DNA from: Citrus sinensis
Lineage: Eukaryota > Streptophyta > Magnoliopsida > Sapindales > Rutaceae
Length of the DNA stretch: 64,000 nt
NCBI RefSeq assembly: GCF_022201045.2
Contig: NC_068564.1
Span: forward strand, 30,223,001 to 30,287,000
Reading direction: 5' to 3'
Shown: one piece after another, positions 52,201 to 56,866 of the stretch
How the letters are laid out: each line of letters opens with the position of its first letter
Numbering within the stretch: the stretch's first letter is position 1
Translations under genes and position numbers: made by a program
The notes under the pieces: model-generated
The model's input: the letters and a program-made list of their open reading frames with translations, nothing else
Database searches by the model: none
Told to the model about the DNA's origin: nothing

Positions 52201-52628
52201 TTGTCTGTTGACCTCAACCATGAGAAATTTCTGGGAAAGAAATGAATTTCGCTGGTTGTTTTTTCAGAGAAACCTGTTATACTTTGATCCTACATAAATC
52301 TTATCATAGTCTCCCACCATATCATCTATTTCTTGGGCTCCTGATTCTTTTTGTGGTTGAGATTTGCATCTTGCCTGCTTTGACTACCAATTTCTTTCAT
52401 CAATACTGATTTTTTTTTTTCCTTCACCAGAATAATTTATGGGATTTAATGGAAAAGTTATTTTATCTGCTGTCATCTGCAGGAATTCCCTTAGCATTTG
52501 TGATTTTCTACATGTATGAGAAAAAAGAGCAAGAAATTGATTCCATAGTACTCGAGGCTCTTTCCATCGGTGGCAAGTTTAAATCTAATATTGCCAGAAA
52601 GTTTCTTACTTCAAAAAAGAATGACTAA
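46280..52628 (+). CDS. 3beta-hydroxysteroid dehydrogenase/C4-decarboxylase with reticulon domain, twelve exons
   Basis: Exons: 46280-46517, 46620-46709, 46847-46980, 47175-47345, 48252-48377, 48582-48661, 49001-49199, 50122-50227, 50858-51032, 51424-51580, 51827-51893, 52483-52628; 562 residues, phases exact. The enzyme oxidises and decarboxylates the 4-carboxysterol intermediate in sterol C4 demethylation, using NAD+, at the ER. Cofactor motif [11 protein letters not shown] at residues 13-23; catalytic Tyr159-x3-Lys163 in YSATKAE. From about residue 382 a reticulon domain with hydrophobic hairpins ([16 protein letters not shown] and [12 protein letters not shown]) anchors it in the tubular ER. 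This fusion is the known plant architecture of 3BETAHSD/D1 and D2. I chose the ATG at 46280; the in-frame codon upstream is GTG. Intron 2 has a (TTG)n run. No anomalies in key residues. Confidence 0.93.
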
Positions 52629-53650
52629 ATAGATAGTGACCTGAAGTGATGGCATCTTCATTTCTTACTTGATTAGAGCTCTTCAACTCATATGCCTGGG
52701 TTGGCTTTTATCATATATCTTGTACCGATTTCTGTACTGTCATTCTTTTAAAACTATGGTAAAGCAAGCTATTTAACTTTTTCTTTTTCTCACGAAATGC
52801 TTGTGCATCCAATTTTGAATTATCCTTGGAGCTCTATGTATCATCTCTGTTTTAGATTAATAGAAAATTGTACATTTTGTTCATATCCCATCCACAACAA
52901 ACACAACACATACAACACACCCCCAACCACCCCCAACCCCGCCCCCCGCCCCCCCTCCCCGGGGCCCAATGTTATTCACCTCATGATATATGGAAAGTAT
53001 TACTTCTTCGTGCATTAAATTGGTGGAGTCAATGTTGGAATGATTTGGTGGTTGCATCTTGCATGAACTTTCGTCAAAAGTGAGGTGGCGCTGAGATAAG
53101 TTACCTTTCGTTTTCATTATTGTATTAAATTATAACTTCAGTGTTATGAGTTAAGCAGAATTAGAATTAACGTAACCTGTTATATTAGCACAGTTACTGC
53201 CCAACGTCTGAGCATGGCAACGGCCCAAAATGTTTCCGCACAATCAGATATTATTATACTCCAATTTGCAAGTATATTGATATGCCAAGCGCCAACTGAA
53301 ATTCACTGTTATTAGCAGAGGATAATTAAGGAAATAAAGTAGAAAACTCAGAATGGTGGTATATACCATAACATAATCCCAGCATTTAATTACATTCCTC
53401 GGATGCAACAAATTTCTTTCCATGGGAATTTGGACTGACATTTGACAACCCCACTTAAGGAAAATACCAAAAGGCTGAGGTTCCCTATCTAAGACGTTAT
53501 TGATTGGTTTGTATAATAAGACAATCAGGTCGGTTAATTCAAGATTAAAAATGCAGGCTTGCTGATTCGTTCCAGAGCATAAAATTTATCAGCGAGAAGA
53601 AACCAAAGACAAACGAATCAAGCAGAAGGAGAAAGAGCAGAGTTGCAAAA
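52629..53650. other. Intergenic between 3beta-HSD and nucleoredoxin
   Basis: No gene. A strand-asymmetric C-rich tract (52919-52968, runs of CCCC separated by A) follows the dehydrogenase 3' end; the complementary G-rich strand could form a quadruplex. The right part is the nucleoredoxin promoter and leader. Confidence 0.6.
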
Positions 53651-56600
53651 ATGGCACACAGTTCTAATAATGGGTTGATGTCGCTGCTTGGCAATGGTGG
53701 TGACAACACTCTGCTGCGAAGTAATGGAACTAAGGTTCATTTCTTTCTCAACTATCTTTTATCTTCCCAGGCAGCACATGAACTTAGTATATACCCATTT
53801 AATTTCATATTTTTAATCACGTGGGATTTATAATCCTAACAATAACCCGTCTTTATTATTTTTTTTAAAAGAATTCGCTACCACGAATAATTCTTTTGTT
53901 ATTATTTTCGTTATTGTTGTTGCGTTGTTCTAAGTAAGTTGACATTAGATAGGCTAAAGAAATTTTTCAATCAATTTAAAGGCATCTAAAAACTTAGAAT
54001 CTTATATCCATGAAAATCGCTAAAATTTTACCACCAAAAGACATTAAAAGAAAGCGTGCATATCTTTTTTTTTCCTTCATCAATCATGTAGATTTTGGAC
54101 ACAACAAAAGTCTCAAAAACTTCAATTATATATCTGCGTGAGCTGATATGACTTGTGACCTCCTTAAACTCTTCGAACAAATTATAAGCAGACCACATTT
54201 CATGAATTGGACCCCCCAAAAAGAAAAAGGTCTCTACTTCGCAGCCCCGTCCTCCATAATGTGCAAAATATCCACACCAAATATGATGACTGAAACCTAC
54301 AAAGAGCTGGTTACCAAAGGTGTTAATGATATTCCAATCTCAAAACTCGCGATCGATTGAAGAGTTTGTTTGCCGTTGAATCAACTCCTGGGCTCATAAT
54401 CTTGAATGAGAAAGGAATTCTAGTGAATGGTAACCGTCTCTTGGTTGTTTATAATTACATATAACTACGGACTCAAATGGGTACCCATTTACTTCAGAAA
54501 GAATTAATCAACTTAACTAAAGATAAAGTAGAGGCAACCAAAGTTTTGAAACTTTGTTGGCTACACTTCTATAGATTTTGCAATTTCAAATGATGGCAAT
54601 GAGATAATGTGGAAATTTCAGGGTTCGTTTGGCATGATTTTTTTTTTTTTGTTTTATTAGTAAAATTTATATAAAAACAGTGCCCTATTAGCTACGTTAC
54701 ATTATTCAGTATTTTGGATGTTTATTTGTGATATCGAATTGAGCAATATAATGTTCTTTTGTAGTAGAATCTTTTCAATGAGAATTCCTACACTTTATTA
54801 AAGTGCAAGAAGTCAGAAACATTATTATAATATATGGCATAATCGTGCAATGATTAATGGATAATAACTATATTCTGTAGCAATGTTGTTTTATAAAAAT
54901 ATTAATTCAAGTCTATATTTTGTAAAATGTGAAAATCTAGACCGAACAATAATATATTTTATCACAAAAAGTATAAGTTATTTGGTTGTTAATCTATCTT
55001 TTAACAAAAGTTGTGAAATTACTTTTGATAAAATTTTCTACTCTTATCTTATGAAAATGGAGAATAAATAACTAAAAGAAGAGATTAGTATGTTTTTTTC
55101 AATTTGTGATTTCGAATATCTTTATTATACATGTCTGGTGTGACTACTCTAACAAAAAAAGAGTTAGTTTAATACTTTTGAATAATTATCATGTGTACTT
55201 TTATATCAATCATGTAACAATCAATACATGCGCGACGAATTCAACTGATGAAAGGAGTATGTATATATCGAGAGCAACTAAGATTATATTTTTCAAGGAG
55301 AAGAGTTCGTATTTTTAGCATCTTTTGTAGTGAAATATTGTACCTGATGATCGTTCCTACACTTCTCAAAACTTGTGATGCAGGTTCCAATCTCAGAGCT
55401 TGAAGGGAAGATGGTGGGCTTGTACATGTCGCTTGGTTCATTCAGATCATGCCAGAATTTCACTCCAAAGCTGATAGAATTTTACAGAAGTTTGAAGGAG
55501 AAAGGAGAGAGCTTCGAAATTGTATTGGTTTCACTAGATGATGATAAGGAATCCTTCCAGAGACAGTTTGTGAACATGCCTTGGCTGACCATTCCATTTG
55601 GTGACAAAGCTCTTGAAAAACTGCCCAAGTACTTCGAGCTAAGAGCGATACCAACAATGGTGATCTTGGGGCCTGATGGAAAAACCCTGCACCTCAATGC
55701 TCGTGGGTACATTGAAGAATTTGGAATCCAAGCATATCCTTTTTCCGCAGAGAAGTTTAGTGAGCTAGAGGAGATCAAGAAGGCTCGAAGAGAGTCGCAA
55801 ACCCTGGAATCGCTTCTGGTTTCCGATGAACTGGATTTTGTCATAGGAAAAGAAAACATCGAGGTAATAATATATACTTTAATGATTCGCTTGATTGCAA
55901 GCATTTTTTTCACAAACAAAAATAGGATACGTATCAAGATTTAGGCTAACATCCCATGGTAAGTCACAATTCTTTTCTTCATCGTATGGGAAGATGTACG
56001 TTTAAGCCACATTATTTTGGGTCTAGATAATATTTAGACTGTGCTATAAAGAAACGAGTACAGTTCTGACAGAACCATGATTCTAGTGAGCATGTGTCTT
56101 AATTGTTATTGTATTCGATAGCTAGTGATTTCATTTAAGATGTCTACTGCATTTACAGGTTCCTGTATCTGAGCTTATTGGGAAGATAGTGCTTTTCTTC
56201 TTCTCTCGAAAGCAATGTCCCCAATGCAAGGTATTCACTCCAAAGCTAGCCAAGACATACAACGAAATCAAAGCCAGACACTCGGATTTCGAACTGATAT
56301 ACGTTTCACTTGACAACGACGAGGAATCCTTCCATGACTACTATTCCGAAATGCCCTGGCTGTCCCTCCCTTACAATGACAAACGGGAAGTTCTCCTTCG
56401 ACAATCTTTCGAGTTCTCCGGCATCCCTCATCTCGTTGCAGTTGGTCCAACCGGTAAAACTCTCACCAACGAGGCCAAAGACCTCGTGGTGCTTTACGGG
56501 TCCGAAGCATACCCGTTCACAGACATTAAAAAGAAAGAATTGGAGGGAAGGCTCGAGGAGATGGCAAAGGGGTGGCCTGAGAAAGTGAGGAACAAGAGAC

Positions 56601-56866
56601 ATGAGTATCATGAGCTTGTGCTTGCTCGCTGTGGCGTTTATGCTTGTGATGGGTGCAAAGAGTTGGGGGTGCGATGGAGTTTCAATTGTGATGAGTGTTA
56701 TTTTAATCTTCATCCTGAATGTGCATTGATGGGTGAAAAAGTTGTGAGTGGTGATGATGGAAATGATAAGCAAAACAATATTGTTGTTGAAGCTAATAAT
56801 AACGAAGACGAAGCTGCTGGTAGAGAACGCTGGATTTGTGATGGACATGGTTGCTACAAAGCATGA
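53651..56866 (+). CDS. Nucleoredoxin (NRX1-type) with two thioredoxin-like domains, three exons
   Basis: Model join(53651..53734,55384..55863,56159..56866), 423 residues. Nucleoredoxins reduce disulfides in cytosolic and nuclear targets and protect antioxidant enzymes. Plant NRX1 normally has three thioredoxin modules and about 570 residues; here a short 28-residue leader joins directly to the second type of module. Module one (about 29-165) has lost the WCxxC site, reading SFRSC with only Cys51. Module two (about 189-330) keeps CPQC (Cys208, Cys211). The C-terminus is a Cys/His-rich C1-like zinc region (HEYHELVLARCGVYACDGC, NCDECYFNLHPEC). Both modules begin with the repeated VPxSEL..GK. Intron 1 (1,649 bp) holds a decayed remnant of the missing module. 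So the protein likely has a single redox-active site. Confidence 0.88.
54220..54431 (+). pseudogene. Fossil first thioredoxin module inside NRX intron 1
   Basis: Plus-frame reading from 54220 gives KEKGLYFAAPSSIMCKIS, then TPNMMTETYKELVTKG, matching the start of a nucleoredoxin module (KxxGLYFSAxWC, FTPxLxxxYxEL). In another frame, 54363-54431 reads SLFAVESTPGLIILNEKG, matching the module's later part (the FEVxGIPxLVIL..GK region). The middle of roughly 45-50 residues is missing, the CxxC is gone (only one Cys), and frames do not join. It is read as the relic of the N-terminal module of this very gene. A relic from another nucleoredoxin copy is less likely given its position and strand. Confidence 0.72.

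Follow-up and report, generated by a model that had tools for sequence, protein, structure and literature searches.

Inside the first intron of a Citrus sinensis nucleoredoxin gene lies sequence that reads, in pieces, like a thioredoxin module that the gene itself no longer encodes. The locus therefore raises the question of what this sequence once was, and of how a gene might drop a whole domain and remain in working order. We address it in the window, the whole 64,000-nt stretch of DNA that was analysed (C9:30223001-30287000), and in a search of the genome from which it comes (299.7 Mb, 11 contigs).

The predicted gene model joins three exons (Table 1) into an open frame of 1272 nt, encoding 423 residues and a stop, with GT-AG introns and phase 0 at every joint. 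Exon 1 resembles exon 1 of a paralog on C4, which ends ...LLSSSARDFLIRSNGDQ/GT (a slash marks an exon boundary throughout). Exon 2 matches Pfam Thioredoxin_8 (E 8.2e-24), and exon 3 matches both Thioredoxin_8 (E 3.4e-23) and C1_2 (E 1.5e-06). With two Thioredoxin_8 modules and a C1_2 domain in exons 2-3, the live gene is therefore, by its predicted model, a nucleoredoxin with two modules, of which module 3 alone keeps the thioredoxin CxxC. A first-pass annotation of this DNA had described the live gene as lacking its N-terminal module, and this holds; the fossil occupies the place, after exon 1 and ahead of module 2, where module 1 would be expected. Module 3 (56159-56545) carries QCPQC instead of WCPPC, and its branch in the module tree described below measures 0.74, compared with 0.12 in the intact paralog. 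Further upstream in the window, an open frame of another gene (52410-52625) weakly resembles Reticulon, at E 0.0051 and with 17.2 bits against a Pfam cut-off of 31.8, and a C-rich low-complexity run lies downstream of that gene at about 52920-52968.

Table 1. Features of the nucleoredoxin gene and of the decayed exon in its first intron, in window coordinates.
Feature	Position	Strand	Remarks
Live gene, exon 1	53651-53734	+	MAHSSNNGLMSLLGNGGDNTLLRSNGTK; phase 0 end at AAG/GT; predicted gene model and boundary
Composite intron 1	53735-55383	+	1649 nt; GT at 53735, AG before 55384; predicted from sequence
AG near expected acceptor	54190-54191	+	...aattataagcag/ACCACATTT; at most 4 nt from the position predicted by paralog spacing
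Dead module 1 (thioredoxin-like) exon	about 54192-54603	+	412 nt, compared with 480 nt in the intact paralog
Fossil blocks GLYFAAPSSIMCKISTP (54229) and TETYKELVTKG (54289)	54229-54321	+	Frameshift-aware alignment
Site of net 79-nt deletion	54322-54341	+	20 nt, compared with 99 in the paralog; arithmetic on block coordinates
Fossil block KTRDRLKSLFAVESTPGLIILNEKG	54342-54416	+	Frameshift-aware alignment
Fossil blocks GYPFTSERINQL (54479) and GNQSFETLL (54533)	54479-54559	+	
Fossil block DFAISNDGNE, end of dead exon	54574-54603	+	
Lost donor position	54604-54609	+	ATAATG, where GT is expected; donor of live exon 2 is GTAATA
Live exon 2, module 2	55384-55863	+	480 nt, phase 0-0; no CxxC
Live exon 3, module 3 (CPQC), C1_2 domain and stop	56159-56866	+	

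Searching all six frames of the genome with PF13905 yielded ten matches. Three fall in one C4 gene, two on C5, two on C1 and two in the C9 gene under study; the tenth, on C5 near 29.77 Mb, is partial, covering 36 of 94 positions, and resembles another protein family. Judged by its modules, the nucleoredoxin encoded on C4 is of type I and intact: exon 1 (MNMNGANSHDIQSLLSSSARDFLIRSNGDQ) is followed by module 1 (WCGPC, 480 nt), module 2 (no CxxC, 480 nt), module 3 (WCPPC) and, by eye, a C1-like end, all with phase 0 joints. The C5 gene is type II-like, with two modules bearing WYPPC and WCIPC, and the C1 gene is type III-like, with two modules bearing WCRPC and WCPPC; both have a cysteine-rich C-terminal end that looks C1-like by eye. 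The second modules of these two genes group with type I module 3, so that here too the difference from type I amounts to one complete module exon. Every module exon that was read in the four genes is phase 0-0 and cut at the same point, and the residues that come before each module are supplied by the preceding exon (SNGDQ/VKI, SDGRK/ISV, SNGTK/VPI). The surroundings of the three other nucleoredoxin genes yielded no fossil module, in a search run without a shuffle control and with masks that were off by one base at C4 module 2 and by nine at C1 module 1; around the C5 and C1 genes the best score outside the masked exons was 53.

Each of the nine modules was aligned to intron 1 by a local protein-to-DNA method that allows frameshifts. 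The first-pass annotation had tied its proposal of a broken module to a significant frameshift-aware match to nucleoredoxin, and such a match was obtained: C4 module 1 scores 137, while 300 dinucleotide-preserving shuffles of the intron give the same query a mean of 31.1 (s.d. 4.2) and a maximum of 56, so the homology to module 1 is not due to chance. With the remaining eight modules the scores are 46-83. Among these, the module 2 queries (78 and 79) exceed all 300 shuffles, and three do not rise beyond them: C4 module 3 (47, reached by 2 of 300), the live gene's own module 3 (46, reached by 7 of 300) and C5 module 2 (55, reached by 2 of 300). Taken separately, the fossil's thirds (54193-54330, 54331-54440 and 54441-54603) score 53, 67 and 79 with the module 1 query, against shuffle maxima of 37, 43 and 40, and none of 1000 shuffles reaches the observed scores. 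When the window was cut into 152 half-overlapping pieces of 1649 nt and searched on both strands, the only scores above 53 came from the live module exons (313, 313 and 280) and the fossil (137). At the nucleotide level, the local score between the fossil and the paralog exon is 68 (200 shuffles: mean 31.5, maximum 57.5); a global alignment of the two is weak in its central part and out of register across the deletion. A Pfam hmmscan of the two originally noted fragments alone returned no family at E up to 10, and the best E in a tblastn search with the gene's own modules was 0.44; the case therefore rests on the frameshift-aware comparison with the intact paralog. A genome-wide search for more copies of the fossil DNA returned only the fossil itself.

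Both of the frames originally read as a broken module, GLYFAAP... from 54229 and VESTPGLIILNEKG in the block from 54342, match module 1 of the intact NRX1 paralog. The span first given to them, 54220-54431, does lie inside the fossil but covers only about half of it, missing the tail blocks GYPFTSERINQL, GNQSFETLL and DFAISNDGNE as well as the lost donor; the residues missing between the two frames, put at 45-50, come down to a net gap of 79 nt, or about 26 residues (20 nt against 99). The alignment takes in residues 9 (54220) to 160, the final one (54603); residues 1-8 lie outside it and are hardly recognisable. A start at 54192 is suggested by the AG at 54190-54191, a dinucleotide so common that it is weak evidence alone. 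The 5' end is accordingly less firm than the 3' end, because the alignment begins at residue 9 and itself sets the 3' end. With its 5' end deduced in this way, the fossil has identifiable ends and sits collinear between exon 1 and the module 2 exon. Intron 1 is, on this anatomy, a composite of the putative former intron 1, the dead exon and the putative former intron 2.

The damage to the exon is extensive. Its active site reads SSIMC in place of WCGPC, its reading frame changes four times by block coordinates (one of these changes being the net deletion), and two in-frame TAA stops, at 54518 and 54524, fall between GYPFTSERINQL and GNQSFETLL. Because of the four frame changes and two stops, the dead exon is uncodable. 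The earlier view that the exon had decayed is thus borne out by the lost donor, the frame changes, the stops and the deletion in intron 1; its wording "in progress", however, is too weak for an exon damaged to this extent. The second half of the composite intron also holds a degraded copy of a dispersed repeat, at about 54889-55123 (best conserved at about 54957-55068). At least 15 other places in the genome match this repeat, at 72-77% identity among the best candidates scored, and the 12 of these places that were compared share stretches of about 130-720 nt with one another in the part of the comparison that was displayed. A transposable element was considered as the breaker of the exon and set aside: the degraded repeat lies ~290 nt past the dead exon, and we claim no link between the two.

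Which module the fossil was can be asked of its readable residues, of which 43 of 84 are identical to C4 module 1. Residues that match C4 module 1 and not C4 module 2 number 17, and the reverse 5 (p 0.017); between C4 module 1 and the gene's own module 2 the count is 18 to 7 (p 0.043). The deciding residues favour C4 module 1 over each of the eight other modules, with the gene's own module 2 giving the weakest case. These residue and codon counts use the 84-codon row, a 91-codon row with a seven-codon block one base out of register having been dropped. In a domain tree of ten modules of this genome, the fossil pairs with C4 module 1 (97/93), C9 module 2 with C4 module 2 (99/97), and C9 module 3 with C4 module 3 (99/98). 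For the tree and the residue counts alike, the fossil row had been read in the register of C4 module 1, which tilts it towards that module. Scores, tree and residue counts thus all place the fossil closer to module 1 than to other modules, which supports the view that module 1 of the genome's three-module NRX1 is what it resembles most and is collinear with. Since the fossil and the two live modules pair with C4 modules 1, 2 and 3, the window gene looks like a full-length type I paralog that lost module 1. We put the probability at a little over nine in ten that this NRX1 paralog once had exon 1, three modules and a C1 domain, and that its module 1 exon was lost to splicing and decayed in place. 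The ancestral presence of that exon is deduced from the paralog and from position, in one genome.

Several other histories have to be weighed against this one. The fossil could have arisen when a tandem duplicate of the gene's own module 2 exon failed, in which case no ancestral domain was lost. The module 2 queries do match the intron above all 300 shuffles, at 78 and 79, and the AU test leaves a module 2 grouping unrejected, with p 0.116 for the fossil as sister of both module 2 rows and 0.080 for sister of this gene's own module 2. Nevertheless, the paralog's module 1 matches far better, at 137, the residue counts go to module 1, the tree places the fossil with module 1 at 97/93, and the fossil motif GYPFTxERI shares its G with module 1 of the paralog, at a position occupied by A in modules 2 and 3 of both genes. 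We therefore consider a tandem copy very improbable. Still harder to credit are sequencing or assembly errors that made an intact exon look broken: one frame change does lie within a C6-A5-G-A5 run, but single-base errors do not give a net 79-nt deletion, a changed active site, two stops and a lost donor, and the adjoining exons are clean.

Two further alternatives concern what the gene does at present, and we regard both as unlikely, to about the same degree, though less so than a tandem copy or an error. The dead exon might act as a poison exon, included now and then by way of its AG and so directing the transcript to decay. The AG at 54190-54191 is present, donor-like GTs occur at 54230, 54430 and 54623, and inclusion would bring a stop at 54291, 33 codons in. 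Against this, the exon no longer has its original donor, and the donor-like sites agree with 6 of 9 consensus positions, the same as the two live donors, a score that speaks neither for nor against their use. Alternatively, the whole gene might be a young pseudogene whose two-module reading frame is unused, as its fast evolution (branch lengths of 0.74 in module 3 and 0.38 in module 2, compared with 0.12 and 0.34 in the intact gene) and the alteration of the module 3 active site to QCPQC could suggest. Against this, the 1272-nt coding sequence has no stop, frameshift or broken splice site, where decay at the fossil's pace (six lesions, namely four frame changes and two stops, in 412 nt) would have left about 18; and pN is far below pS in both live modules, a measure that averages over the whole time since duplication. 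The intact coding sequence and the low pN together favour a working two-module protein. TaNRX1 offers an analogy, since its module 3 is reported as the strongest in vitro and its module 2 as the weakest (excerpted text of PMC8632643): because module 3 is kept here, the gene could remain active.

If the module 1 exon was indeed lost to splicing, loss of the donor, or another early lesion, would have led the spliceosome to join exon 1 directly to the module 2 exon. Donor loss alone would be expected to cause skipping, and that it came as the first event is a supposition on our part. With phase 0 on either side of every module exon, omission of the one for module 1 leaves the frame intact, and exon 1 would be joined to module 2 in frame. 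That the gene splices over the dead exon we infer from its GT-AG sites and matching phase 0. The tail of exon 1 (LLRSNGTK) would then replace that of the lost exon (DFAISNDGNE) as the lead into module 2, and the outcome would be a 423-residue, two-module protein with CxxC in module 3 only. Tryparedoxins are single-domain enzymes of trypanosomatids. They include the module's closest solved relatives by sequence (PDB 1o7u and 9fov), and LLRSNGTK falls inside the tryparedoxin alignments; exon 1 plus module 2 scores 76.6 bits against 1o7u and 77.2 against 9fov, compared with 72.9 and 71.9 for module 2 alone, in comparisons made without a shuffled control. The stronger proposal, that the loss of one splice site among interchangeable phase 0-0 exons turned a three-module protein into a working two-module protein in one step, with the exon 1 tail standing in for the lost one, we hold tentatively, at somewhat worse than even odds.

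As to timing, the paralogs are close to saturated at synonymous sites (pS 0.70-0.77), so dating by dN/dS is impossible and no date is given. The fossil has a pN of 0.33 (84 codons; a lower bound, as it covers alignable blocks only), and the live modules against the paralog give pN/pS of 0.26/0.76 (160 codons) and 0.33/0.77 (first 130 codons). Because the fossil's pN is close to that of the live modules, selection probably acted on the now dead exon through most of the period after duplication, and its decay came late. Taken as a whole, the locus looks like a completed domain loss in a gene otherwise under selection, and like pseudoexonization after duplication.

Domain loss is usually inferred from absence, whereas here the lost exon remains legible next to the part of the gene that still appears to work, and the genome also has an intact paralog. 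A readable fossil makes the order of events testable, that is, whether the splice site or the coding sequence was damaged first, and the locus gives a concrete example of why genes built as one module per exon, with symmetric phases, can shed domains unbroken. If the one-step reading is true, such a change of architecture could be replayed, and its steps ordered, in related plants. Among the matches listed in literature on nucleoredoxin gene families, exons and introns, loss, and citrus, there was no description of this fossil. We regard the case as a clear, well-preserved example of ordinary gene change, a good teaching case that calls for no new mechanism. On pseudoexonization in duplicate genes, PMC4852290 cites Xu et al. 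2012.

How the gene stands among known nucleoredoxins depends on how their types are drawn, which in the excerpted texts of PMC8632643 and PMC12052764 is by module number and active sites. It is like plant NRX1 (AtNRX1, TaNRX1) in that each remaining module pairs with its counterpart in the intact three-module C4 gene and in the phase 0, one-module-one-exon layout common to both, and unlike it in having no module 1 and QCPQC in module 3. Type I, as the available portion of PMC8632643 defines it, has three modules; with two live modules, and with QCPQC where WC[G/P]PC is expected in modules 1 and 3, the live gene, which by its module pairings descends from type I, is no longer type I by that definition. 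It shares with types II and III two thioredoxin modules and a cysteine-rich C-terminal end, but differs from them in active sites and tree positions: those types have two modules with WYxxC/xCxPC or WCRPC/WCPPC and a phylogeny to match, and the live gene falls outside both because its modules pair with type I modules 2 and 3 and its sites differ. The C5 and C1 genes, by comparison, carry the sites reported for types II and III in the excerpt of PMC8632643; the number of modules in type III is given as two there and as three in that of PMC12052764, and the C1 gene has two. Another parallel is pseudoexonization, presented in the accessible part of PMC4852290 as an established route of duplicate divergence, with the working definition that an exon of one gene aligns with an intron of its duplicate. 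The C4 module 1 exon aligns in just this way with intron sequence of its C9 duplicate. The published events sized in that part of PMC4852290 are of 8 and 45 nt, whereas what appears to have been lost here is a whole folded domain, contained in exactly one symmetric exon.
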